From the NCBI GenBank assembly GCA_963281255.1, contig OY725498.1:3658001-3722000 (forward strand): a stretch of 64,000 nt of DNA, written 5' to 3'. The position numbers and the translations under genes were made by a program. Under the pieces are notes generated by a model that saw only the letters and a program-made list of their open reading frames with translations, ran no database searches and was not told the origin of the DNA. Shown one piece after another: positions 13,251 to 40,484 of the stretch. The number at the start of each line of letters is the position of its first letter. Position 1 is the stretch's first letter. The DNA is from Aphrocallistes beatrix. Its lineage: Eukaryota > Porifera > Hexactinellida > Sceptrulophora > Aphrocallistidae.

Positions 13251-13400
13251 ACAATATCTGAAAAAGTCTTAATTAAGGACATTAAATAACTTGTAAGCTA
13301 ATGAGACATATTTTTAAGATTTTAAATTACCTCTACTTCATCCATGGTAAATTTGATACCAGACCTTGTGTTAACTTGTAGGCTATGGTGTATCCTAATA

Positions 13401-14729
13401 CTTAGGGCATTCAATAAGTTCGTAACCCTACCTATAATTTCTTTGCTAGCCTTATTTAAAATCAGTTCTAGTGTGATTATTACAGATCCATATTTAAACT
13501 ACTATTTACTGTTTAGTTTATCTAAATTGATCAAATCCTTGAGAAGTTACATCAATTTTACATTTGGCTGTTTGACTGAAGTGATATTAATGGCTTCAAA
13601 AATACCAGAAATTAATGTAGAGCATAGAGCCTATATTAAAATCAGGTCGCTTCTTGGAGACACTCCGAGGAATATTTTCAATGATCTATCCCGAGTTTAT
13701 GGCCGTGATGCTTGTTCAGAATCTGCCGTCAAGAAGTGGAGTATTCGTTTTCGTGAGGGGAGAGAGGCGATAGCAGATGACCCTCGGGCTGGAAGACCGG
13801 TTACGGCGACCACCACTAATAATATCTCTCTGGTATCCAAAATGATTGAAGAGGAACCACATATCACGATTGAGGGTATTGCTAACCATGTTGACTTGTC
13901 ATCGGGAACAGTTCATGAGATTTTGAGTTTGTTCTTGGCCTGAGGAAAGTTTGTTCCCGTTGGGTCCCGCATTTGCTTTCTGACAGTCAAAAGAAGGCTC
14001 GATTGGATGCAGCTAAGTCTCTCCTGAAAATTTATGGTCATTGCAATGAAAGGCGATTATTCGAGATCTGTACAGGAGATGAAACCTGGATACGGTTTTC
14101 AGAGCCATTACATAAGGAACAGAATAGAGTATGGCTCCCGAAAGGCACAGATCCACCTGCAATCCCCCGTCCGGACCACTGGGGCCGCAAGGTTGTGTAC
14201 ACGATATTCTTTGATGCATATGGCCCAGTGTGTCAAATTTGCACCCAAAGGGTAGGACTGTTACAGGAAACCTTTATGCAACGGTGATACTTCCTGCTAT
14301 AAAGAAACACTATTTAGAGCGTCGTCCAGGATGTGGACTCAGGGGGATAAAATTATTGCACGATAATGCCAGACCCCATAAATCGAAGCAGGTGAAGGAC
14401 AAATTGAAGTCCATGAGGCTTGTCGAATTATATCACCCTCCTTATAGTCCAGACCTAGCACCCTGTGACTTTTGGCTATTTGATGGTCTCAAAAAACACC
14501 TAGCAGGGAAGACTTTTGATGAGAGGATGCAACTTGGGAGGACCAGCGGTACCTTAGAAACATCCCGGAAGAGGAGTATAAAAAGACATTTTATATGTGG
14601 GTAGAGCGGTTAAAGCTCGTAGTTTAGTACAAGGGAGATTACTTTGAACATTTAGTAAAGTTTTGATATGATATAATGTGTATTGCCCCTTTTTCCATAC
14701 TGAGTTACGAACTTTTTGAATGCCCTAAG
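13401..14729 (+). mobile_element. Mariner element with inverted ends
   Basis: The left end CTTAGGGCATTCAATAAG and right end CTTTTTGAATGCCCTAAG are inverted copies of about 26 bp with one mismatch. TA lies directly outside the left end; on the right, one extra G precedes TA. The interior codes a broken mariner transposase. The same ends are used by the non-autonomous insert at 50377-51142. Confidence 0.9.
13590..14604 (+). pseudogene. Mariner transposase, frameshifted
   Basis: This enzyme cuts and rejoins the element's own ends. Three overlapping frames make up one protein. 13590-13943 has the paired helix-turn-helix region with SAVKKWSIRFREG and DDPRAGRP. 13973-14287 has the first catalytic Asp in GDETWIRF. 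14230-14604 has HDNARPHK and PPYSPDLAPCDFW. The spacing between the second and third Asp is 34 residues, the mariner DD34D pattern. At least two indels break the frame, and the last part loses its C-terminus. The start is taken at the ATG before ASKIPEINVEH. Confidence 0.9.
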
Positions 14730-21309: not shown

Positions 21310-22075
21310 ATGTCGACTCATCATGGAATTATGATGTCATTGTCACCTGTATTATTAGACATTTCAGGTTTTTTACTATAATATGACACAACTATCATCA
21401 AATATTGATGTTTCATCATTCCGTTATAACGTCATTATTACGCATCAAAAATTGAAAAATTTGGTTATTTTTAAGTGATATCGATTGTAACTTCAGACAT
21501 TTATTTAGAGATGTTATCTACCCTATAATTAATCAATGTGAGCCTCGGCGCCCATACGACGCCTGGCGGATACAAAGCCGCGGCGCAAGCAAACGAAGCA
21601 CGCTTATATATATGTATTCGCTTGCTTGCGCTGTGCGGCTGGCAGACACTGTACTCGCCGGAGGCGCCTGGACTCAGATTGATTAATTATAAAGTGGATA
21701 ACATCTTTAAATACGTCTGTCTTACTGTTATAATCAATATCACCCGAAAAATCACAAAATTTTGGATGCATTATGATGATGTCATAACAGTGTGTCATCA
21801 TTTTTTGATGATAGGTGTACCATATTTGCGATATACGTATTGATATTGACATTCTATTAAAATTTCAGCCTTCTATCACCTAAAATGGCGAGTCATAGCC
21901 GAAAAACTGAAATTTCTAATTATAAAAAAGGTGACAATGACGTCATAATTCCATGATGAGTCGACATTTTGGTCTGAGGTCAGAACTTAGTGGGACCATA
22001 GCCAAAAGACCCCCACATGCCAAAAATCAGCTTTCTGTGCCTGGCAGTTTCTTCAATCAATTCGTTAGATATAGA
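21310..22075. repeat. Family R palindrome with head-to-head hairpin modules
   Basis: A nearly complete R element: left arm, GC module on the minus strand (21541-21610), an AT loop, GC module on the plus strand (21623-21675), and the right arm ending TTCTTCAATCAATTCGTTA. It shows that the module lies at the inner end of each arm. Exact TGACGTCA occurs at about 21939; the left-arm sites are mutated. Confidence 0.7.
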
Positions 22076-22300
22076 TACAGTCAACTCCGCTTAATCGAGA
22101 CACCGCTTAATTGGGACAAGTCTCCAGGAACGAAGTGGTTCCCATACATATAAGCTAATACTAAATTCCATCGGTTAATTGAATAAATAAATAAATAAAT
22201 ATGCCAGTATTGTATCTGGAATTGAATAGATATCCCCATCTTCAACTAGCATTTTACTGTATCAGACTCATTTTTCTCCTTCAATATCTTGTGTAGAGAT
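22076..22300. other. pogo-like end fragment and AAAT microsatellite
   Basis: A single end CAGTCAACTCCGCTTAATCG at about 22079 resembles the MITE at 35640-35707; no matching right end was found. An (AAAT)n run lies at about 22180-22201. Confidence 0.5.
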
Positions 22301-23507
22301 CTATATGATGTCTGAATCCGTTTTCGCACTAAGTTGATGGGGCACAAATTTCGGAAACCAGATCGAATTTCCTTTCCTCAACTTTTCTTTACCCCAGTCC
22401 TTGGTTACATGTTTACAATCTTGAGGTTTGGATTCAAGATTAGTTCGCTCAATTGTTTTAGTAAAAGGTTTCAAATTAAAGGTATTGATTATTTGAGTCG
22501 AAGGCAAGTAGAAATACTTTCAACTATCTCAACTCTATCCGTATACTTACTTCCGATAATGTTTTCTTTAGTATAGTCGCTGCCTTTTGTAAGTATATTG
22601 GGGCGAACACAGTCTAGAATATGTTCTGGAGTGTCCGAGTTGAAGGGTATAATAAAGTCAACCTCCGGTATCCAATTAAGAATCTTAATTCTAAAATCAA
22701 TTGGATTGATCGGACGGTCTTTTCCCTTTAATTTTCGAATAGATTCATCCGTGTTAATCCCTACCATCAGAACATCCGCCAAGGATTTAGAACGCTCGAG
22801 ATTGGAGAGATGTGCGTGATGGAAGACGTCAAAGCAACCATTGCTGAAAACTATTGTTTTACCAGAGCGTCGAATGATCGAAACAATAAACTTCAACTTA
22901 TCTAAGTCATTTACTACTTTATCTGTTCTAAGATAATTGTAAATATCTTTCAATAAAGTATTTTGGGTCTGCGAAAACAGGAATCTTCTTACCAATCGTT
23001 TTTACTCGTATGCTAGTTAGTATGCTTTCTGTCACTACACCCTTTCTATAGTCAACCAATACCACAGCACAACATGAAGACATTTTCTGGACAATAAAAT
23101 CAATTATTTTCTGTTTTCAGTCCTTTTCTCTATTAACTGAGTTTCTTCTTCGTCTAATCTTGAAAGTAAACTATATTCACTGAATAACCTGGTTTTGTGA
23201 GTGGTTGGCCGATCTAATGCTTCAAAAATACCTTCAGTCATTATATCCAGATTTCAAGGAGACACATCACCTGTTTGCCAATTGCGTCAGCTCCGATCAC
23301 TGAAACTGGGATTACACTATATCCTAGTGATGCTAAATTGGCTACCACTAGCCCAGCTCCTCCTAAAGAATTTGTTCTTGATATTTCTTTGCATACTGGC
23401 AACGGTCCCTCCGGTGCAATACGACAAACTGTAGTCTCCACGTGTGCATCAATCATTATATCCCCCAATACGAGAATAGTTTTACTTTCAAAGCTTTCGT
23501 CGTTCAT
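22301..23507 (-). pseudogene. hldE: Bacterial-type bifunctional heptose kinase/adenylyltransferase relic
   Basis: HldE in bacteria phosphorylates heptose 7-phosphate and then adenylylates heptose 1-phosphate on the way to ADP-heptose for lipopolysaccharide. The order here is the bacterial one. First come kinase pieces: LVLGDIMID and CRIAPEGPLPV with NSLGGAGLVVANLASLG (23507-23249), RPTTHKTRLFS (about 23250-23111), and VVLVDYRKG with VFADPK (about 23112-22935). Then comes the adenylyltransferase: VFSNGCFDVFHHAHLSNLER, LKGKDRPINP and ILTKGSDY (about 22995-22510), and a last block STQII in another frame. At least four frame changes are needed. The second half of the kinase, with the GAGD catalytic loop, is missing. 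No convincing introns are seen. It lies between animal-type transposons, so it is more likely a transferred, decaying gene than contamination. Confidence 0.85.
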
Positions 23508-23699
23508 GGTGTGGAGAATTATGGTCCCAGAACTATATACATATATTACAAGTAATTAATTAGTACAGTAAATATTGAATATGGTGATAGAGGCGGGGAG
23601 GGGGAATTTTTGATCAAATTATTACTATATCTAATGTAGTATTTTTAATTTTTTTATATCCTTACTATTAAAACTCGATTAATACTCATATATATAATA

Positions 23700-25330
23700 C
23701 AGTCGACTCTCGTTAATACGAACACGGATAAGGAGTACAATCGGATAAGAAGTACAAGTTTTGATTCCCCAACATGGCAAAATATATACAAACGAACTCC
23801 GGTTAACACGAACACGGATAAGACGAAATATCGGATAATAAATACGATTTGTGGGTCCCCTTCAGTGCGTTTTCAAACTAAATACATCGGTTAATACGAA
23901 CACGGATAATACGAACAGGTGTGTGCCTACGAGCACTTTGAATATGGTACGTAGTATCTACGTAGATATATACTAGACAGATATTTCTCAATGAAAATAC
24001 AGTCGAATCTCGTTAATACAACATGGATAATGAGTTCTCTATTTGACACAAGTAGTACAATTTCATACTCTCACGTAGTTATCACTATGTATATTAAGTA
24101 TTTTGGACAAATGTGGCTATGTACGTACTTCGGTTAACCCGCCAAGATCTCTCATCAAAATTCCTACGTCATAGTCCAAATGGGGTCCAAATGGACCCCA
24201 GAGATTTTCAATGACATCATAGTCGCAGTGGGGTACAAATGGACCCCAGTAAATATGACGTCCTAGTCGGAGTGGGATACAAATGGACCCCAGCGAATAT
24301 GACGTCCTAGTCGCAGTGGGGTACAAATGGACCCCAGTGAATATGACGTCCTAGTCGCAGTGGGGTACAATGGACCCCAGTAATATGACGTCCTAGTCGC
24401 AGTGGGGTACAATGGACCCCAGTAATATGACGCCCTAGTCGCAGTGGGGTACAAATGGACCCCAGTAAATATGACGTCCTAATCGGAGTGGGGTACAAAT
24501 GGACCCCAGTAATATGACGCCCTAGTCGCAGTGGGGTACAAGTGGACCCCAGTGAATATGACGTCCTAGTCGCAGTAGGGTACAAATGGACCCCAGTGAA
24601 TATGACGTCCTAGTCGCAGTGGGGTACAAATGGACCCCAGTAATATGACGCCCTAGTCGCAGTGGGGTACAATGGACCCCAGTAATATGACGCCCTAGTC
24701 GCAGTGGGGTACATGGACCCCAGTAATATGACGCCCTAGTCGCAGTGGGGTACAAGTGGACCCCAGTGAATATGACGTCCTAGTCGCAGTGGGGTACAAA
24801 TGGACCCCAGTGAATATGACGTCCTAGTCGCAGTGGGGTACAAATGGACCCCAGCGAATATGACGTCCTAGTCGGAGTGGGGTACAAATGGACCCCAGCG
24901 AATATGACGTCCTAGTCGCAGTGGGGTACAAATGGACCCCAGTAAATATAACGTCCTAGTCGCAGTGGGGTACAAATGGACCCCAGCGAATATGACATGA
25001 CGTCCTAGTCGGAGTGGGGTACAAATGGACCCCAGCGAATATGACGTCCTAGTCGCAGTGGGGTACAAATGGACCCCAGTAAATATAACGTCCTAGTCGC
25101 AGTGGGGTACAAATGGACCCCAGTGAATATGACGTCCTAGTCGCAGTGGGGTACAAATGGACCCCAAAAATTGTATGTCGTGCTAGTCTTAGTGGGGTCT
25201 TTTTGGACCCCAATATTGCCTGGGGTCCACTTGGACCCCAGGGTGTCATTGGTGGGTTTTAATACGTACTCCGGATAAGGAGTACAAATCTCCACGGTCC
25301 CTTGGTGTACGTGTTAACGAGAGTCGACTG
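23700..25330. mobile_element. pogo/Tigger-like element carrying a minisatellite
   Basis: The ends CAGTCGACTCTCGTTAA and TTAACGAGAGTCGACTG are inverted copies, with TA directly outside both. Inside the left end the motif 'TAATACGAACACGGATAA' recurs several times, and a third end-like copy lies at about 24000. There is no transposase. Most of the interior is the 44-bp tandem array. Confidence 0.85.
24150..25190. repeat. 44-bp minisatellite, about two dozen units
   Basis: The unit reads roughly ATGACGTCCTAGTCGCAG, then TGGGGTACAAATGGACCCCA, then GTGAAT. The second part is an interrupted palindrome (TGGGGT against ACCCCA), so each unit can fold. Units vary by single bases and one-base deletions. 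Open frames across it are repeat artefacts. Confidence 0.92.
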
Positions 25331-26111: not shown

Positions 26112-26625
26112 ACGAGTGTTATCTTAGCGGCCGATTCAGCGGCGGATTCGCATGTCACGTTCAAATATGAATAACTCAGCAAGCATATGTCCTAGATGAA
26201 ATCTAATTGCACCATTGTGTAGAGGAGCATTGGTGCATTCATATTTGATATATGAAATTTTAATATCCTGCGTGATGAGTAAGCAGTGACACTTTTAGTC
26301 CATGTCACGTATCTGATGGAACAAGTCAGTAAATATGAATAGTAGCAATTAGCCCTTTTAACCACATGAAGATGAGCTTTGGTGCACCCCTGAAATCCAT
26401 TTTCAAGACTAAATTCGGAAAACTGGCTAAATGGTAGGGGGCCAAAGTTCGTATTTACTAGTTTGGTAATAGGCATAACTTCATACTGGTATCCAACTAG
26501 GATGTGATCTAGACAAACTTAGCTATTTATCCATAGTTATCTACGCTCTTGATGAATGTCACTGAATTTGTTTACACAATTGATGCATAATTCCTGGTCA
26601 ATTCATAATTAATTAAATATTCCTC
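26112..26625. repeat. Left terminal inverted repeat of the 6.9-kb transposon
   Basis: Matches 32148-32982 inverted with very few differences. A 94-codon open frame (26192-26476, minus) exists only because the repeat happens to be open; the same frame occurs in the right repeat. Confidence 0.9.
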
Positions 26626-26720
26626 CTTTTTTATATTTGATCCCAGCCTAATTAGTATATATAAATTTTTTTTTTTCGAACTAACATTATTCAAACTTGA
26701 CGTTTTCATACATTTTTTTT

Positions 26721-26800
26721 CGCATTTCGCATTTCGCATTTCGCATTTCGCATTTCGCATTTCGCATTTCGCATTTCGCATTTCGCATTTCCCATTTCGT
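26721..26800. repeat. (CGCATTT)n tract
   Basis: About ten 7-bp units lie between the left inverted repeat and the first coding frame. Units are perfect on the left and degrade to the right. Confidence 0.92.
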
Positions 26801-26886
26801 AATTTGCATTCCGCATTTCCATTATCGTTCGCTTTTTTCTTCTCGATTTTTCCTCTGACTACTTCCATAATTCTAAGTCAGAAAAG

Positions 26887-27156
26887 ATGAATAATACGGA
26901 GAGTATTACTTTTTGTCAGGCCTTACTCCAATTGGGATACGATTCTTTTGAATCTTTAAATTCAGCATTAATTAAAGAAAACAGGAGAGCAAGCAATTCT
27001 CTTTGGGGAAAATTGTGCCTTTCGATGTACGGAGTCAACAGAGAGAGGAAACGCACGTTACTCTATACTAATTGGATGAAGAATCGCGGTCAGATAAAGG
27101 ACGTAGTAGCTGCTGAGATGTCATCTAAGGGTGAGTTGAACAAGTCCGACGAATAA
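26887..27156 (+). CDS. N-terminal part of the large-transposon protein
   Basis: 89 residues, opening with an ATG. A basic stretch (NRERKRTLLYTNWMKN) suggests a nucleic-acid-binding region, but no named domain was recognised. A GGTGAGT donor-like site lies near its end at 27130. An unbroken 48-codon frame follows in another phase (27157-27302, starting VQGNSYLDRS), then the transposase frame. So it is probably the first segment of one long protein, interrupted by an intron or by indels. Confidence 0.5.
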   Translation: MNNTESITFCQALLQLGYDSFESLNSALIKENRRASNSLWGKLCLSMYGVNRERKRTLLYTNWMKNRGQIKDVVAAEMSSKGELNKSDE

Positions 27157-27290
27157 GGTTCAAGGGAACTCATATCTTGATAGGAGTGGTAAGATAGCTA
27201 AGAGTGGAAATAATGATAGTTGTCTTGAGTCAACCCCCATGTTAGATATTCCACAATCTAATCAAGAACTGGAACTTGATTGCTTAAACG

Positions 27291-28763
27291 TTGAAATTAA
27301 CTAATACTAAAAGTGATCGAAATCTCAACGATGCGCTAAATCTCCCTAGTATTTCTAATGGAGAATTTAATTTTACTTTGGGTGAATGGGAAAATATAGC
27401 GATGTTACAGGGCAACCGAGCTATCTTTTCGAGGGATTGGACCAATGTCTTTAATGCTAAGATCGAAGATAAATTTGTTTGTGTTATTTGCTTTAAATAC
27501 AAAAAAATAGGTAAAATTAATAGTAGGAAAAGCAATACTTGTTTTTTCACTGCTCATGCAGAATGCAAGTTTTCTAATTGTCTTCGTTTTAAATTTACAA
27601 TACAGAATGAACCTTTTACCTCTCGGCCTGTTAACATTACTGTCAATTATGAAGTAATGGGTACCTTATCCCCTGAGCATTCAAATGTGGACATTGCCTA
27701 TTCAAGAAAATTGTCGAATAGTTTAAGATTGCAGGTAGCCTCTAATTTAACTGATAAATCAGTTGGTAACTACTTTTATGAACAGTTTCCCCATCCCAAT
27801 TGTGAGAGCTCTGCGTTATCTTTTGGTAACTTTAACAATGTAAGAAGTGCCTGCGTCTTGAGGAAGGCTAAGTTTGATTTGTCTTGTCTTCAAAGGTTTT
27901 CTAACGATAATTGGAGCGAACTTTCTGGTTTACAGGAATATTATAGAAATATTACAGTTAATAACATACTTCGAGGGTACATCCAGTCTTTAGGCCATGA
28001 TCCATTCATAGTTCATATGTATTCTCAAGATCAAATTCAAGTTTTGAATTATTTTAAGGGTAAGAAAGTAATTGTGCATTTAGATTCTACCGGGTCTATT
28101 ATTAGAAAAATAAACTCGAGCCAAAAGCGTGTTTTTTATTATGCATTGACTATTCGTCACCCTGAGGTCACAACCAGCCCTTTGCCATTAGCTGAAATGA
28201 TTAGTTCAGCTCATTCTTCTGCAGAAATATCTTATTTCTTACATAAATGGTCTCTTGACTCAAAAAAGGTCTTAAGTAGAGAAATTAATATTGGCCATGT
28301 AGAGATTGATTATAGCTGGGCCCTTATTCATAGTGTTTGTAACGCTTTTATTAAATCTGATATTTTCACATACTTGGAGAAATGTTGGAAGTTATTATTT
28401 AGTCAGGAGGAGGTTTGTATGCAATTCGGTGTTATTCTTCACTTGTGTTCCGCTCACCTAATTAATGGAATAGCTTTTAATGTGAATAAAAAGTTTAAGT
28501 TATCTAAACCAGTTCGAAAATTGTTTCTTCATACTATAGGATATATGATAAATTGTACGCAAATGATAAATTTAGATAGTGTTTTTATGGATTTGTGTTA
28601 TGTCTTTTTAAACCGAAATTTCAATAAGAATGTTGAGAAGCATATACAAAATTTAGAATCATTTATTAGTTATAGTAAAAGTTGCGATGATGAATATGTT
28701 GAACCCGAGGATAGTAATGATTTGACATCTTTTGTGGAAAATGAGGAAAACCTATCGCGATAA
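27291..28763 (+). CDS. DDE-like transposase of the large transposon (central part)
   Basis: A frame of about 490 residues. The likely catalytic string VIVHLDSTGSIIRK is followed by YYALTIRHPEV and PLPLAEMISSAHSS. A second acidic site lies in HVEIDYSWALIHSVCNAF. A CSAHLI motif follows. This pattern fits a group of large transposases that I know from fish, cnidarian and sponge genomes but cannot name with certainty. The frame opens on TTG after a stop, so the true start is upstream (26887) through a frame change near 27290. It ends by a one-base shift into the next frame at about 28755. Confidence 0.65.
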   Translation: MKLTNTKSDRNLNDALNLPSISNGEFNFTLGEWENIAMLQGNRAIFSRDWTNVFNAKIEDKFVCVICFKYKKIGKINSRKSNTCFFTAHAECKFSNCLRFKFTIQNEPFTSRPVNITVNYEVMGTLSPEHSNVDIAYSRKLSNSLRLQVASNLTDKSVGNYFYEQFPHPNCESSALSFGNFNNVRSACVLRKAKFDLSCLQRFSNDNWSELSGLQEYYRNITVNNILRGYIQSLGHDPFIVHMYSQDQIQVLNYFKGKKVIVHLDSTGSIIRKINSSQKRVFYYALTIRHPEVTTSPLPLAEMISSAHSSAEISYFLHKWSLDSKKVLSREINIGHVEIDYSWALIHSVCNAFIKSDIFTYLEKCWKLLFSQEEVCMQFGVILHLCSAHLINGIAFNVNKKFKLSKPVRKLFLHTIGYMINCTQMINLDSVFMDLCYVFLNRNFNKNVEKHIQNLESFISYSKSCDDEYVEPEDSNDLTSFVENEENLSR

Positions 28764-30111
28764 ATCCCCATTTGGTAAGCATTTTAACACAATTTATGAG
28801 AAGTGTAAATCCGAAATTTTACTTTTGAATGATGAGAAACCTTGTTTGGAAGCCAACCCTTGTTATAACCCCGAAATTATTGAATATCTACTTACCCATT
28901 ATATGGCTATAATTCCACTATGGTCAGGCATTATTTTGGGGTTTGGTTCCAGTGAATCCGATGTTTACATGAGTCATTATAGTAATGCAATTGTAGAAAA
29001 TTGGATGCGTATAGTAAAGATAGACATATTAAAGTCTCGTACTGGTTTAAGACCAGGGGATCTGATAAGGATTATGCATCCTAACATAATTAAAAGATTA
29101 GCAGCTTTTTGCTTTGCTTTTCATCCTAGAGCTAAGAAGGTATTTAAAAGTTATAAGCGTAAAAGAGATCCTTCTGAGGAGGAGAATTGTCAGGAGGAAT
29201 GGCAGAGAAGGAGTAAGAAGAAATGTAATAGCTATTTAGTATCTAAATCTATCAGTTTTTCTCAAGTTAGGCCATTAGTAAATAATAAAAATAAAAGAAA
29301 ATTAGATGCAGGAAATGACATAAATGAAACTGAAAAAAAGAAATGTAAAATTAGTGTAGATAAAAATGAAAAAACAAAGCTAAAATTTGTACCTAGGTTG
29401 CGTCAGAGATTATCTGATTTGAAAAAACGTGACTTTTCTGTCTCACGAATCAGTGATAATATCGACAGTGACGCTGTCGATATTATCACTGATTCAGATC
29501 TTGTAGAACAAGATATTTTACGTTTAAAGTTGCCTCCCTTCCGCCCGCCAAATAAAGACTGGCAAAAAAGTATATGTAGTAAATGGAATATTTTGGTTTC
29601 TAATTATATTAATTATGAAATCGATCCTCAGTTGGATCAACAAGATCTTAGAGAATGTAAACCTTGTGTTGTTGAAAACATAGTGGGTGATGGAAATTGT
29701 TACTTTCGAGCTCTTTCGTTTATCCTTACCGGTAGTCAGGAAAATCATTTTAATTTACGCACAATTATAGTTAATAACATGTTAGGTAGATTAAAAAATA
29801 GTTGTGACGCCTTTTTAAGGACTAAATATGTTTACCAGCAAAGTAACTACAGAAGTGTAAAGGATTGGGTAAATAAGACAGGGATGGATAAGAATGGGAA
29901 GTGGGCAACGGATTTGGAAGTATTTGCGACAGCGTTACTTTTTGAAACCGATATATGGGTATATTTAGGACCTGGAGGTACACGCTGGATTGGATTTTCT
30001 GGTAAAGGGAAAAAATTAAATGAATTTCTCGATTGTCCCTCTATATTTAGATTATATCTACAAAATACTGGCTGTCATTATGAACCTGTTTTGTCTGTTA
30101 ATAATATGTAA
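28732..30111 (+). CDS. Transposase C-terminus fused to an OTU cysteine protease
   Basis: After the shift, the frame continues with YSNAIVENWMRIVKIDILKS (probably carrying the third acidic residue) at about 28985-29040. A lysine-rich, nuclear-signal-like linker follows. Then comes an OTU deubiquitinase domain at about residues 310-457: VGDGNCYFRALS with the catalytic Cys, and NTGCHYEPVLSV with the catalytic His. The protease core looks intact. At about 29453-29490 a near-perfect palindrome around GTCGATATTATCACTGATTC lies inside the coding region. OTU domains in transposons may protect the transposase from ubiquitin-dependent loss; that role is inference. Confidence 0.75.
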   Translation: MWKMRKTYRDKSPFGKHFNTIYEKCKSEILLLNDEKPCLEANPCYNPEIIEYLLTHYMAIIPLWSGIILGFGSSESDVYMSHYSNAIVENWMRIVKIDILKSRTGLRPGDLIRIMHPNIIKRLAAFCFAFHPRAKKVFKSYKRKRDPSEEENCQEEWQRRSKKKCNSYLVSKSISFSQVRPLVNNKNKRKLDAGNDINETEKKKCKISVDKNEKTKLKFVPRLRQRLSDLKKRDFSVSRISDNIDSDAVDIITDSDLVEQDILRLKLPPFRPPNKDWQKSICSKWNILVSNYINYEIDPQLDQQDLRECKPCVVENIVGDGNCYFRALSFILTGSQENHFNLRTIIVNNMLGRLKNSCDAFLRTKYVYQQSNYRSVKDWVNKTGMDKNGKWATDLEVFATALLFETDIWVYLGPGGTRWIGFSGKGKKLNEFLDCPSIFRLYLQNTGCHYEPVLSVNNM

Positions 30112-32147
30112 TCCAATTCTTCAATTAAGCCAATTAAATATATTCAACTTCTATATATGACTTTATTTTATTTTGTATCCGTGCTGTTGTTGTCATTGTT
30201 ATTGTTTTTATTTTGTATTCATGTTGTTTTTGTTTTTTCTTTTTACCTCTTCATAGCACTTAGTGATATTATTTATCAAATGCAATCAACTCATTCTCAT
30301 TTGTTGTCATAACCTGGAAGTGTAGAGTGCGTCAAACACACATTTCTAAAGAATGTACCACACAAGAAGTTTCTATTTTTCACAAATCAACATAGTCTAT
30401 TTATATATCAAATATTTGACTTGCCCGAAATTTGGAACCAACAAACTTCTGGTGATTCAAAAGAAGCATTCCACGCATACGTAATTACACTTCAGCAGAT
30501 TTCTAAAAAGGGAAATTAGACGATTTACTCGCTCAAAATGGAAGTGCATTACAATAACAACACTGGCAGGGTGCTATACTTGTTAATTTTAATTAGTCAA
30601 TAGCTTAGTCCAGAACCTCAATTGAATTGACTTTATTAATCAGAGTTATTTTAAGCATATTAATAAAGATGGTAAATTTACAATTACAATTATTATTCAT
30701 TATTTATCAAAAAGACAAAGCCGTGTGGTAAATGCATGTTAAATTCATTATAGTGGAACGAAATTACCTGATAGGTTTATTAGCAAGTATTTGTTTACTA
30801 TTAATGCTCGTTATACAAAATTAAACTTCAAAAGTTTATAATATGTCCTAAAGCGAAAATAAATATATTAAAATCGGGAGCGATTCCAATTTCTATTTTG
30901 ACATTATGAGGCCTTTTTACGAAATTTCAATTTTTAGGTTGACTTGCATGAATTTTATGTCATCAGTGTATGATAAGGCTGTCCAAACCCTATCTCCTCG
31001 GGCAGCCACATTCCATTATTGGGGTCGCGGGGCGAATATAAATGTAGATTCAGAAGTTAATATAAAATAATATGGCAATTATTTCTCAAATGATTAATAA
31101 AAATAACTTATTTTTTAAATATATCAGTCAGTGAACTGAAGACAAGACTACCTAATTATCTTCAACTCTAGGCACTTTGAGATCAATGGATTTTCTCGAG
31201 AATGTTTGCAATACCTGTCTCAGAAATCCATTCACCTGCACATTTTGTATTCCCCTCTCGTGAGCAGTTTGGTAGTGGCTACGGATATTATTACCTTGTA
31301 TGCTGAGAATACCAGCACAAATCAAGCATTGGGGGTTTTCCATGATCATACCTGACAACCCTTTTAGAGCATTTCGCAGAATTTGAACAGGAAATCCTTA
31401 AGGTGATAGGCCCTCAAATTTTGAAAAAAATTGACAGAACCAAATATATTGTAATTTAGTTTTTATTTCATTCTAGGATGTCTAAATAATCCGATAATCA
31501 GATATTTTGTCAATCCGATGATTGTTTATGTACTTGTAGCAGGTTAAATCTGGCCTTTCTCAATCAAAATCTATTGATTTAAATTTTAAAAATTTTCAAT
31601 TGGCGCACATCCGTATGATTACCCTAACTCAAAAAATATTTACATTTTAATCGCAAACATATTGTAAAAAACACGCTAAATCCTCTGATTAAGCTAGTAG
31701 CGAAGCCCGAATTTCAAATAAAAGAAAAGTTTAAAACCTGAAAATTATTTTGTCCCAAAAATTCCTGAGTAAATGGCTCGACAAAATATTTTTCAACATA
31801 AAAAATTATTAAAGTTAAAATTGAACAAAATAGCTTCGCTACTAGCTCAACCATTCGCTAATAATGATATTTGAACAGTAAAATCAACTTGATCCTAGTC
31901 AATAGTTAGTTATGACGAACGGCACAACCACGGATATTGTATAGGATTTAGACTTTAAGTGACTATAACTTCATATTTATTCCTAGTTCGCAACTCATAT
32001 TATGCATTAATTCTTGTACTAACTAGTACTATCCATTAACAGTATAACAATGGCTGAGTTAAGACTTTGATTTTTTGGGGTTTTGTCTCCTTAAATAATC
32101 ATTTTAACAATTTTATCCGTGAATAATAAATTTTGGTCTGTTCTTAC
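30112..32147. other. Non-coding interior of the 6.9-kb transposon
   Basis: Two kilobases of AT-rich DNA between the OTU stop codon and the right inverted repeat. The only plausible coding piece is the small minus-strand frame at 31152-31358. Confidence 0.5.
31152..31358 (-). CDS. Possible small zinc-finger frame in the transposon
   Basis: Contains CLICAGILSIQGNNIRSHY then QTAH: a C-x2-C followed by H-x4-H, as in a C2H2/BED-like finger. It may be one exon; an AGGTAGTC donor-like site follows the stop. It could equally be chance. It lies opposite to the transposase strand. Confidence 0.3.
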   Translation of the reverse strand: MSGMIMENPQCLICAGILSIQGNNIRSHYQTAHERGIQNVQVNGFLRQVLQTFSRKSIDLKVPRVEDN

Positions 32148-32982
32148 GAGGAATATTTAATTAATTATGAATTGACCAGGAATTATGCATCAATTGTGTA
32201 AACAAATTCAGTGACATTCATCAAGAGCGTAGATAACTATGGATAAATAGCTAAGTTTGTCTAGATCACATCCTAGTTGGATACCAGTATGAAGTTATGC
32301 CTATTACCAAACTAGTAAATACGAACTTTGGCCCCCTACCATTTAGCCAGTTTTCCGAATTTAGTCTTGAAAATGGATTTCAGGGGTGCACCAAAGCTCA
32401 TCTTCATGTGGTTAAAAGGGCTAATTGCTACTATTCATATTTACTGACTTGTTCCACCAGATACGTGACATGGACTAAAAGTGTCACTGCTTACTCATCA
32501 CGCGGGATATTAAAATTTCATATATCAAATATGAATGTACCAATGCTCCTCTACACAATGGTGCAATTAGATTTCATCTACGACATATGCTTGCTGAGTT
32601 ATTCATGTTTGAACGTGACATGCGAATCCGCCGCTACGACAACAAACTTTGGCCCCCTGCCATTCAGCCAGTTTTCCGAATTTAGTCTTGAAAATGGATT
32701 TCAGGGGTGCACCAAAGCTCATCTTCATGTGGTTAAAAGGGCTAATTGCTACCATTCATATTTACTGACTTATTCCACCAGATACGTGACATGGACTAAA
32801 AGTGTCACTGCTTACTCATCACGCAGGATATTAAAATTTCATATATCAAATATGAATGCACCAATGCTCCTCTACACAATGGTGCAATTAGATTTCATCT
32901 AGGACATATGCTTGCTGAGTTATTCATATTTGAACGTGACATGCGAATCCGCCGCTGAATCGGCCGCTAAGATAACACTCGT
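32148..32982. repeat. Right terminal inverted repeat, with internal duplication
   Basis: The segment starting AACTTTGGCCCCCTRCCATT occurs twice in tandem (from about 32323 and 32642). This lengthens the open frame at 32297-32902 to 201 codons. I treat that frame as a repeat artefact. Confidence 0.9.
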
Positions 32983-33401: not shown

Positions 33402-34092
33402 CTAATTAGTTTTACAATTGGTACAATACCACTTTTTAGAAAGTCTTTTCGAGGTTGAAATACAGTTAAAATGGTACCACTCTGCACATCCATCACATGC
33501 AATCATTTTTCCTCCTTCTTGAGTTCTACAACTACAGAATATTTCTATTACATCCGTTCTAATAATACTTCGTACTCTCACAGATGCTGTGCTCACTTTT
33601 GTACTAGGGAATGGAATTATATCTTCTTCCTCGAGACACCTAAGAAGATGAGACCTCATAACTTTTTCATCAAACTGTAGCAGTTGTGGCATCTCTCCTG
33701 CACATATGGCTGTGGCAAATGCCAGGGCATAAAGTCCACAATTACATCCACTTCTCTGTTTCTGTACACCAACATATTGTACGTTGATTGTAGCCTGCAT
33801 TGACATTAGCAATGCACATATTTGTTCTTTTGTGTGCGTAGGTATAGTCGAATAAAGACTGTCAAATACCTTGATTGTAGAGGGTGGGCAACCAACAGTT
33901 GATATAGTTACCCAATGGTTACCACCAGAGTGTAAAACCTGCACAAATTCACTCCTGATAACATTAAAATGAAAAGTTTGGCCCAATAATGTATCCTGAA
34001 GTCCTGAAATCGGATACTTTCTCTTTAATAACTTCTGAGTAGCGTTTATTATGTTATCAGTCAGCCACTCGGATTTACTCCTCAATACATTC
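33402..34092 (-). CDS. Ulp1-like cysteine protease plus PHD finger (3' exon)
   Basis: The last exon of a spliced gene; the acceptor CTGTTAG at 34093-34099 precedes it, and no ATG starts it. Ulp1/SUMO-protease core: GGNHWVTIS (His), VFDSLYS (Asp), VQKQRSGCNCGLYALAFA (Gln and Cys). A PHD finger closes the protein: FCSCRT, CDGCAEWYHFNC, WYCTNC, eight metal ligands in order. Upstream exons probably lie at 34567-35315 and 35971-36289. Proteins pairing Ulp1 with PHD are typical of large animal DNA transposons; the job is unproven. Confidence 0.78.
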
Positions 34093-34099
34093 CTAACAG

Positions 34100-34566
34100 A
34101 AGTTATACAGTAGAGTTGTAGATTTTTTTAACACAATTTAAATCAACTGCATACAAAAATACCGCTATGTCTGCCATGTTTGTGTCATATCTGTCAAATA
34201 ATACAACCAAGGTTAGGTTTAATTATAATTATAACTAGTGCGCTTCGCTTGCTTGCGCTACGCGGTTTGCAACTCAATCATTTGCCATTTTTCGACGAGT
34301 TTGTTAACGTTAACGTTGCATAGAAGACAAGTAATAATTTGTGTTGTTCTTCAAAGTTGTCTTCATGTGCTATATTACGTAACGAACAAGGACGGCGGAA
34401 CCTGTCAGGCAGGTCAAGCAATTGCCTGACCACTTTTAATTTGCTTCTGCCTGGCCTGACGAATGAAACGTCGGAGCTAGTATGAACTGCGGAATACCTG
34501 TCTGTTTCACATAGTTGTACTGTATCAATCGTTTTCCAGATTGCAACTTTCTGTCCATCACAATTA
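34100..34566. other. Interior of the TTAA element between coding pieces
   Basis: A partial GC hairpin module lies at 34236-34272. A minus-strand open frame at 34278-34583 (HEINCDGQKVAIWKTIDTVQ) may be another exon, or coding after an indel, but it matches nothing that I recognise. Confidence 0.4.
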
Positions 34567-36450: not shown

Positions 36451-36789
36451 TTAATATATGCAGAAAAAACAATTCTTACAGTATATCTTAAATATTTAGT
36501 AATACCAAGAAAGGATACAAGTAACTATAAAATAGACAAAGTTCAGTAGGATAAATCAAATCATTAGCATAATGAAAGACTATTAGTCATAAGGATTTTC
36601 CCTTAGGGGAAGTTCAACAATATGTATATTGCATAATATGTGTATGCAGTGGTTTTAATTAGTAATAGCAGTAATCCTGAGCAGGGTTTTATAATAATGG
36701 TCTATTTTAGCGGGAAATTTAGGTTGCTGATCAACTCATCAATATATATATATATATATATACTATAGATTTTAAAATATATTAAACTT

Positions 36790-37938
36790 ATGGAGGAGTT
36801 TAACAACACATACAATCGCACTGAACTATACCAGTTAGTTCCTAGTCCTGTTCTAGATGTTTTTTTGGTAGCCATAGCAATTACAAATCTCGTAGTGTTT
36901 ACACTCTCAGTCGGATGGCTTGTAAAGATCTGCTTGGAGACGACCAAATTAAGGAAAATGATTCAGACCATAAACAAGATTGAGACAACTGAAGAAAAAA
37001 GTGACAGAATGAATAACAACATACGTTACAGAAGAAATTTGATTCTCATTGCTGTTCTAATAGTTGAAGCACTTCATCTTGTATTAAAAGGCATTGGGTT
37101 CGCAATATTTTTTATCTTTAAATATATCAATAATCAGGATTTAATTTCTGATTGTAGTCGCTTAAATGGTTACAGTACAGAAAAAAGTTTTAGATATTTC
37201 CCCATCACATTAGTTCGATTAGGATTGACTAATGCATTAATATTATCGCTTGTTCTGCTTTTGTCTATTGTAATGGTCTACCTCGCCAAAGCATACAACG
37301 AGCATAAAGACTTCTCAATCTTAAAAAAATATCTGATATTCGGAATCTTTCAATTTGTCAGTGTTTGGATCACCGTCTCCATTCTTTGGACAGCATTCGA
37401 AGGTAGCATAATATTTTCAATATTCGCCATCATCAACTGCATAATCATATTTAAGTCTAGAAATGAACTCTCCCAGGCTCTTACAAAATGGAAACAAGAT
37501 TTGGAGGAGGATTTCTATGAAGACATGGCAGCTTTTTTGAAACGAGAGAAAATAGTCAAAAGATGCAAACAATGGATGAGTGTATTGGTGATATCAACCA
37601 TAATCTACCTCATATCTGTAATACTGGATAGCACAGGGAACTGGATATTTATGATTTCATCAAACCCTTGTATGGTTAGTACCATATTTGGCATGTCTAT
37701 TACAGAACTGAGTGATGGAGCACTAGAAATAGCCTTTAACCTGTCTTCTGTATTATTTTTAATATCCAATATCACCACTCTACAATTTGATCTATTTTTG
37801 ATCCTATCAAATCTCGCTTATTTCATCAATAAGACTTTCTACATAAATTTTGCTTATCAGGACAAGGCTATCAGAAAAATTGTGAAAAACATGGTACATG
37901 AACATCAGAGATTGCTCCAGAACTACAATGTCGTGTAA
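36790..37938 (+). CDS. Orphan multi-span membrane protein, about seven segments
   Basis: A single-exon frame of 382 residues with a clear ATG. Hydrophobic segments lie near residues 22-46, 80-110, 138-168, 182-222 (probably two), 262-285 and 310-345. The N-terminus NNTYNRTE carries an N-glycosylation motif, so it may face outside. A charged loop (KWKQDLEEDFYEDMAAFLKR) lies before the last segments. No GPCR signature (DRY, NPxxY) is seen. It resembles uncharacterised multi-span proteins that I associate with sponges. Function unknown. Confidence 0.7.
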   Translation: MEEFNNTYNRTELYQLVPSPVLDVFLVAIAITNLVVFTLSVGWLVKICLETTKLRKMIQTINKIETTEEKSDRMNNNIRYRRNLILIAVLIVEALHLVLKGIGFAIFFIFKYINNQDLISDCSRLNGYSTEKSFRYFPITLVRLGLTNALILSLVLLLSIVMVYLAKAYNEHKDFSILKKYLIFGIFQFVSVWITVSILWTAFEGSIIFSIFAIINCIIIFKSRNELSQALTKWKQDLEEDFYEDMAAFLKREKIVKRCKQWMSVLVISTIIYLISVILDSTGNWIFMISSNPCMVSTIFGMSITELSDGALEIAFNLSSVLFLISNITTLQFDLFLILSNLAYFINKTFYINFAYQDKAIRKIVKNMVHEHQRLLQNYNVV

Positions 37939-39179: not shown

Positions 39180-40484
39180 CGAGGGGTGCCCGATAAGTTT
39201 TTAGCCTTGATTCGAAAACAGCATTATAATAGAATGCATTATTATAATTGTTCAAAATACTCTCCTCCAGCTTTAATACACTTGTCCATTCTGCAAAACC
39301 AACTATCAAAAGCTTCGGCGAACTCATTTTCTCGGATGTCCTCCAAAGCCTCTGATAATGCTGACCGCACTTCATCATTGCTGCTGAAAACCCTCCCCTT
39401 CAACTTCTTCTTAATACGAGGAAAGAGCCAGAAGTCACATGGAGCTAAATCTGGGCTGTAGGGTGGGTGAGATAACTCCTCGAAGCCAGTTTCTTCAATA
39501 AATTTCCTTGTTTTCAGGGCCTTATGTGAACTTGCATTATCATGATGCAGCAGTAAACCCCTTGTCCCATCTTCTGGTCGCATTTTATGAACATTTTGAA
39601 TGAGTTCTGGGAGGCAACTAGTGGTGTACCATTCTGAAGAGACTGTTTTCCACTCTCTAGTGCAACTACTGCACGAATACCTTTAGGATCAAAGAATATT
39701 GCATACATTTGCTTCTTAGAATACTGACTTTTCCTAACTTTTTGAGGGGGAGGTTCACCTATTGGAGTCCACTGACGGCTCTGCTCTTTGGATTCTGGGT
39801 CATAATGATAAATCCATGTTTCATCACCCGTAATCACTTTGGAAACCAGAGGAGAAGTGCCTTTTTTGAATTTTGACTTCATTTTCTTGCACCAATCAAT
39901 TCGGGCTACTTTCTGCTCAGGTTTGAGCAAATGAGGAATCCACCTTGCACAGACTTTTGTTAAGTGTAGAATTTCGTGTAGGATGAATTGGATCACATCA
40001 TTACTGATACCCAACTCGTACTGAATCTGTCTATAGGTTATGTGCTTATCATTAAGTACCAACTTCTCAATTGCGCTGATGTTCTCTGGGGTCGAAGCAG
40101 TCAACGGCGACCCTGGTCTAGGTTTGTCAGTAAGGTCAAAATTTCCTCTTCTAAACTCTCTGTACCAGTTTTTTACAGTAGCAAGAGATGTAACATCGTT
40201 ACCGAAAGCTTGTATTAACTGTTGGTAACAATCATCAATTGTTTTATCCATTTTAAATTGAAAAAGAATAATTGCCCGAATTTGCTCTTTTGTGAGGATA
40301 ATATTTTCAGTAATATTTGCCTGAGCCATCATACAAAATGTAGCAAAACTTCAGAAAAATATATAGTAGAGAGCTAGGATTTACAGAGTCAGTTAGTAAA
40401 GTATCGAGTTATAAGAAAAATGTATGGTTCGTTAATAATGACTTAATATATGTTCAAGGCTAAAAACTTATCGGGCACCCCTCG
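39180..40484 (-). mobile_element. Mariner element with perfect ends
   Basis: Inverted ends of 31 bp are identical (CGAGGGGTGCCCGATAAG...). TA is duplicated at 39178-39179 and 40485-40486. The empty site can be read in the opposite arm of the foldback (ACAGTAAAAACAC). 1305 bp, the normal mariner size. Confidence 0.95.
39242..40332 (-). pseudogene. Mariner transposase, one frameshift
   Basis: Residues 1-245 or so read in one frame from the ATG at 40332: VKNWYREFRRG with DKPRPGSP (paired helix-turn-helix), then GDETWIYHYDP with the first Asp. A single indel at about 39580 moves to the second frame with HHDNASSHK and PPYSPDLAPCDFWLFP; the spacing is DD34D. Everything else looks complete, so this is a recently disabled copy. 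Confidence 0.93.

Follow-up and report, generated by a model that had tools for sequence, protein, structure and literature searches.

Remains of a prokaryote-type hldE gene, probably with part of a neighbouring cupin gene, in a chromosome of the glass sponge Aphrocallistes beatrix

A broken hldE gene of prokaryotic type was identified in a genome assembly of the glass sponge A. beatrix. The window analysed here is the whole stretch of 64,000 nucleotides comprising bases 3,658,001-3,722,000 of contig C12, and the assembly contains 100,537,919 bases in 28 contigs. The hldE gene encodes a heptose-7-phosphate kinase plus a heptose-1-phosphate adenylyltransferase, and its relict occupies positions 23507-22489 of the window on the minus strand, with the pieces in the order of bacterial HldE. 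In our view it is quite probable that prokaryotic or phage DNA with hldE, and probably a cupin gene, reached the germ line of a glass-sponge ancestor, and that the copy is now a pseudogene. A bacterial or phage stretch, probably with these two neighbouring genes, would have entered the germ line and integrated into a nuclear chromosome; in the subsequent decay the kinase would have gained two frameshifts and lost its catalytic half, and the cupin gene would have been cut to a fragment with a stop. Judged by its sequence, the relict encodes no working ADP-heptose synthase today, and enzyme activity of this copy is not expected.

Two pieces of the relict match the kinase profile TIGR02198: the N-terminal one (E 8e-20, 71.2 bits, profile positions 3-80 of 315) and a further one (query 22931-23116; E 5.7e-7, profile positions 131-188). 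The adenylyltransferase matches TIGR02199 (E 1.5e-38, 131.8-132.6 bits). These matches are far beyond chance and confirm what a previous inspection of the letters alone (the sequence-only reading) had proposed, namely that both HldE domains are present in the bacterial order; the four HldE motifs quoted there were all found, on the minus strand. Every hldE piece scores below the curated cut-offs (345 bits for TIGR02198, 181.5 bits for TIGR02199), and the two kinase pieces lie far under theirs, the catalytic half of this domain being missing.

A frameshift-aware alignment of the relict against a profile of 16 full-length relatives spans profile columns 13-453 of 482, i.e. from approximately the natural start to near the natural end of the protein. 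The gene is not contained in one uninterrupted reading frame. Three frame changes were counted: frameshifts near 23255 and 23112, and a third at an internal deletion near 22930-22914. The deletion removed roughly 125 columns of the kinase and linker; in the alignment, 99 and 25 columns are left unaligned on the two sides of a doubtful 16-residue island. The GAGD loop of the kinase is deleted, and the alignment thus bears out the loss of the second half of this domain that had been noticed earlier. The sequence-only reading had counted at least four frame changes; the alignment gives three inside hldE, and a fourth would have to be assumed only for a C-terminal tail that shares the frame of the downstream piece. 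Of the extent given there (22301..23507), the hldE body takes up 23507-22489, whereas 22301-22488 is not hldE and contains a probable piece of a downstream cupin gene. The second kinase piece, which lies in another frame, had its best tblastn match (E 5.9e-6) in locus L161. Splicing as a rescue of the frame was rejected: at both frameshifts the neighbouring kinase pieces lie one to a few bases apart, which is too little for an intron. The coordinates of these features and of the flanking repeats are presented in Table 1.

Table 1. Features of the hldE relict and its surroundings (positions in the window)
Feature	Position	Strand	Basis or remark
hldE kinase, N-terminal piece	23256..23507	-	84 codons, ATG at approximately the natural HldE start; TIGR02198 and alignment
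hldE kinase, second piece, other frame (RPTTHKTRLF... LDEEE)	23113..23255	-	Frameshift-aware alignment; tblastn
hldE kinase, third piece (VVLVDYRKGVV... VFADPK)	22931..23112	-	TIGR02198; also found by genome-wide profile search
hldE deletion junction, frame change, TAA nearby	22914..22930	-	Alignment
hldE adenylyltransferase domain, open to near natural end	22489..22914	-	TIGR02199
Probable cupin relict, C-terminal part, one in-frame stop	22271..22405	-	Cupin_2 and two cupin profiles
Dispersed host repeat, left flank	21617..22079		Many contigs
Dispersed host repeats, right flank	23655..24700		Many contigs

The adenylyltransferase half is uninterrupted in the frameshift-aware alignment and lies in an open frame of 170 codons. 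This frame stops close to the natural C-terminus, and approximately three residues seem to be missing ahead of the terminal ST motif; alternatively, the tail may be read in the next frame. No in-frame ATG is present in this frame upstream of the active-site motif. Two motifs are altered: HxGH reads HHAH and STT reads STC.

The constraint on this domain was assessed at the 22 columns in which 92 de-duplicated relatives are at least 97% constant. The window sequence retains 20 of these 22 near-invariant residues, a share as low as which was found in 2 of the 92 relatives (the median relative keeps all of them), and its mean identity to the 92 relatives (37%) is the lowest among the rows. By this measure, the sequence still falls within the range of proteins that appear to work, but at its lowest end. 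Since 20 of the 22 residues are kept, the decay looks late: most of the divergence apparently accumulated while the gene was still constrained, either in the donor line or in the sponge, the decay being recent by comparison, and we infer that the adenylyltransferase lost constraint only late. In neutral sequence there is roughly one indel per eight to ten substitutions, and from this ratio and the few indels of the relict the relaxed period can be roughly put at only a few per cent of neutral change.

Directly downstream of hldE, on the same strand, positions 22405-22271 give a cupin-like reading, TKDWGKEKLRKGNSIWFPKFVPHQLSAKTDSDII*ISTQDIEGEK (the asterisk marks the stop). This piece is short (approximately 45 codons) and each single match to it is weak. 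Pfam Cupin_2 matches it at E 0.022, under the cut-off of that model. Among the fetched relatives it has 22 matches (E 0.018 to 0.84), 16 of which are in register and lie in cupin genes located downstream of a heptose adenylyltransferase. With a profile of 12 cupins, the piece ranks first among the reading frames of the window (E 0.0025; next 2), but this profile is biased, because the 12 cupins had been selected for their resemblance to the piece itself. A second profile was therefore considered, built from 47 other cupins with the 12 window-matched ones left out; the piece again ranks first, with E 0.067 and a score of 10.0, below the HMMER inclusion threshold (next 2.1). In a random control (2 Mb of the composition of the window, three frames), the score observed with the 12-cupin profile was never attained (maximum 12.5), and that observed with the 47-cupin profile was attained twice (maximum 13.2). 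On these moderate statistics, it is probable, though not certain, that 22405-22271 is the relict of a cupin gene.

The neighbourhood of heptose adenylyltransferase genes was surveyed in 135 loci (L009-L113 and L137-L166), among them 80 IMG/VR loci sampled from a larger set of matches. A cupin was found at E 1e-5 in 59 of the 135 loci, all 59 among the sampled IMG/VR loci, and 56 of these cupins follow the adenylyltransferase on the same strand, at -200 to +2500 bases; these counts do not represent independent cases, since many of the IMG/VR loci are near-copies of one another. No cupin beside the adenylyltransferase was found in the 18 cellular loci from genome contigs, nor in the 30 Bacteroidota loci within their flanks of approximately 1.5 kb. 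Of the two named phages inspected, P-TIM68 has a cupin gene after the adenylyltransferase, and S-T4 has none annotated there. The probable cupin relict stands where many viral relatives carry a cupin. Part of a heptose gene cluster from a prokaryote or phage was therefore probably transferred, and we infer that the DNA arrived as such a piece.

The relict resembles several known arrangements, none of them completely. Like bacterial HldE/RfaE (NF008454, TIGR02198 plus TIGR02199), it has the kinase followed by the adenylyltransferase on the same strand; it differs from them in its broken frames, the missing GAGD half, the altered HxGH and the scores below all curated cut-offs. With the heptose clusters of marine phages, represented by gp191-gp195 of Prochlorococcus phage P-TIM68, it probably shares the adenylyltransferase followed directly by a cupin on the same strand: gp193 is the adenylyltransferase, and gp194, annotated as a cysteine dioxygenase, scores 134.9 bits with the 47-cupin profile. 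In contrast to the relict, the kinase and adenylyltransferase of P-TIM68 are separate genes with an epimerase between them. P-TIM68 also contains kinase, epimerase and phosphoheptose isomerase genes, and in marine phage contigs (L083, L084, other IMG/VR loci and L175) the heptose adenylyltransferase often occurs with a cupin. The three short phage proteins with both domains that were aligned (383, 382 and 441 aa) lack a kinase segment of approximately 35 residues; its presence in the relict points to a cellular or a longer phage type. The kinase-adenylyltransferase pairs of Bacteroidota (L138, L161), encoded by adjoining genes, have the highest summed similarity over the four hldE pieces, but their genes are separate, their identity to the relict is about 40%, and no cupin is present in their short flanks.

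None of the sampled relatives is close to the relict. Identities range from about 33 to 51%, and the best segment among the matches listed (51% over 108 residues) is in a monodomain protein encoded on a 223-kb IMG/VR contig. In the genome searches, 221 of 395 genomes gave a match at E 1e-20, the highest score (134.6 bits) being that of a genome of the phylum Bacteroidota. Searches of the phage and plasmid collections with blastn gave no match at E 1e-5, and hence no sign of a close DNA donor there. A scan specific for the window sequence gave eight viral loci, the nearest of which was already in the set, and a scan of viral loci with the N-terminal kinase piece yielded 59 pattern matches, none of them a relative by tblastn.

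Phylogenetic trees were built from prokaryotic and viral homologues only, with other lineages, notably Pseudomonadota, represented only by a few plasmid records. In a tree of 128 rows, the window groups with two IMG/VR and three Bacteroidota rows (SH-aLRT 97), and the same six-row group was obtained in a tree of 89 rows (support 91/98), which took 20 of the 59 phage-clade rows and whose bootstrap had not settled. We do not regard this grouping as established. When the window was constrained to join the phage clade in the 89-row tree, the log-likelihood was 9.07 higher, a solution missed by the free search (p-AU 0.616). The adenylyltransferase branch of the window is the longest end branch of the 128-row tree and the fourth longest of the 89-row tree, and its place is unsure for this reason. 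We name no donor from the trees. The sequence-only reading had pointed to a symbiont as a possible donor; none of the lineages sampled is close, and a cluster of phage type would suit the gene neighbourhood as well. We consider the donor likely to have been prokaryotic or phage, and not another eukaryote.

The contig that carries the hldE locus is at least 4.0 Mb long; the locus lies at 3.68 Mb and has the same GC content as its surroundings. The repeat on the left flank, which ends approximately 410 bp from the gene, has at least 161 matches (40 scored of 6,731 candidates), and the repeats on the right, which start approximately 150 bp from it, have at least 69 (40 scored of 565 candidates). 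With host repeats close on both flanks and such a long contig, the relict appears to be integrated in a host chromosome. The neighbours had been described as animal-type DNA transposons; a Mos1/mariner-type transposase is indeed encoded at 39514-40350, whereas the immediate neighbours of hldE are the dispersed host repeats.

Several other elements were noted in the window. Frameshifted remnants of mariner-type transposases are located at 13326-14604 (plus strand; assigned by sequence reading) and 39242-40350 (minus strand; Pfam HTH_48 and Transposase_1). Near-identical open frames in opposite orientation, 26192-26518 (minus) and 32255-32902 (plus), enclose ORFs at 26803-30111, one of which has an OTU domain; taken together, 26192-32902 has the appearance of a large transposon bounded by long terminal inverted repeats. 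The ORF at 33402-34127 (minus) encodes an Ulp1-type C48 protease domain and a PHD finger, and is possibly transposon-borne. A tandem repeat at 24127-25000, also present on contigs C4, C6 and C7, has a raised GC content (0.49 in 24001-25000). The product of the ORF at 36769-37938 (plus; 389 aa) resembles a multi-pass membrane protein and matched nothing in Pfam at 0.001.

The profile searches covered the 100.5-Mb assembly frame by frame regardless of introns, so a gene divided into many tiny exons could be missed. No second or intact hldE was found in the assembly by this intron-blind search, contrary to the suggestion that an intact paralog may exist elsewhere in the genome. TIGR02198 matched the hldE locus twice and a ribokinase. 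TIGR02199 matched (i) the hldE locus, (ii) an ethanolamine-phosphate cytidylyltransferase, with two tandem matches, and (iii) one further protein, without an NCBIfam match at 1e-20, whose sequence resembles that of a choline-phosphate cytidylyltransferase. GmhA had no match in the assembly in the same kind of search. Nothing in the assembly exceeded the cut-off for HldD, the matches to its profile being GalE, a protein similar to dTDP-glucose 4,6-dehydratase, and two weak ones on contig C17. The sequence-only proposal is supported as far as the prokaryote-type gene, its location in an animal chromosome and its decay are concerned, but not for the intact paralog.

Contig C28 (17,996 bases) is the mitochondrial genome, with COX1 and, beside it, COX2 and ND3 (the latter two recognized by sequence reading). 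The COX1 gene uses TGA 14 times and TGG never; ATA, AGA and AAA occur at what we take to be isoleucine, serine and lysine positions, respectively. A paper on Aphrocallistes vastus describes glass sponges as reading AGR as serine, otherwise known only from some bilaterians, as strongly favouring AUA for isoleucine and as making almost no use of UGG (PMC2267718). The mitochondrial codon use fits a glass sponge (Hexactinellida). The compactness of the genome also agrees with this (80 Mb are reported for A. vastus and 61 Mb for Oopsacas minuta; PMC10282587).

Three other explanations were weighed against transfer from a prokaryote or phage. The least probable is an assembly chimera or microbial contamination: sponge DNA preparations do contain microbes, but the locus is deep in a long contig, host repeats flank it on both sides, its GC content is the local one, and a live bacterial gene is not expected to carry such lesions. 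It is also very improbable that only the kinase half is dead and the adenylyltransferase half continues to function as a gene or exon. The long open frame, the aligned domain without a frameshift and the near-invariant residues retained would agree with retained function, but the domain has no ATG before its active-site motif, HxGH has become HHAH, residues have seemingly been lost before a terminal motif that reads STC, and the partner enzymes GmhA and HldD (for the latter, none over the cut-off) were not found in the assembly.

More serious, though still unlikely, is eukaryotic inheritance or spread between eukaryotes, in which the glass-sponge copy would belong to the heptose-enzyme family reported in some protostomes and dinophytes and would have been lost late. 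Such enzymes have been reported in some eukaryotes (PMC11461863; PMC11573728), and a long branch combined with 20 of 22 near-invariant residues could reflect long constraint outside the sampled bacteria. However, there is no intron inside the aligned parts of hldE, and a cupin relict in prokaryotic gene order is unexpected for a eukaryotic gene. We retain the entry of prokaryotic or phage DNA into the sponge lineage as the preferred explanation.

The sequence-only reading had held that no such pathway is expected in an animal. This is too strong, because heptose-activating enzymes are already described in some protostome animals, as well as in dinophytes (PMC11461863; PMC11573728). These enzymes (Tang et al. 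2024, as cited in PMC11461863 and PMC11573728) are, like the relict, of prokaryotic type, and include cases in animal genomes; in contrast to the dead glass-sponge copy, they are reported as enzymes. The link that had been drawn to innate immunity through ALPK1 is weak, as this protein is described as limited to vertebrates, and the same two commentaries carry the proposal that the capacity to produce the compound sensed by ALPK1 was lost in animal lineages (PMC11461863; PMC11573728). Prokaryotic genes in a sponge genome have been published for Amphimedon (PMC4784904), and a compendium from which pseudogenes are excluded places Porifera in the top seven animal phyla by number of reported transfers (PMC13342648). 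The best-ranked literature matches listed include no report of hldE in a sponge, and a word search for heptose, HldE and RfaE in the main text of the Amphimedon (PMC4784904) and Salpingoeca (PMC7971027) papers gave no occurrence.

Heptose enzymes of animals being already known, the novelty of this case lies in the glass-sponge host and in a probable transfer at the level of a gene cluster. It documents a dead transferred gene, a class omitted by design from at least one compendium (PMC13342648), and arrival together with a neighbouring gene, which is probable, would point to DNA-level transfer of a piece of a cluster. It is conceivable, though we think it rather unlikely, that glass sponges once ran a working heptose-activating cluster derived from a microbe or phage, which had arrived as an operon fragment, stayed long under selection and was lost only lately in this lineage; other glass sponges may still have such a cluster. 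The relict adds a non-bilaterian animal to the scattered eukaryotic record of heptose enzymes, and in this way bears on the proposed loss related to ALPK1 (PMC11461863; PMC11573728).
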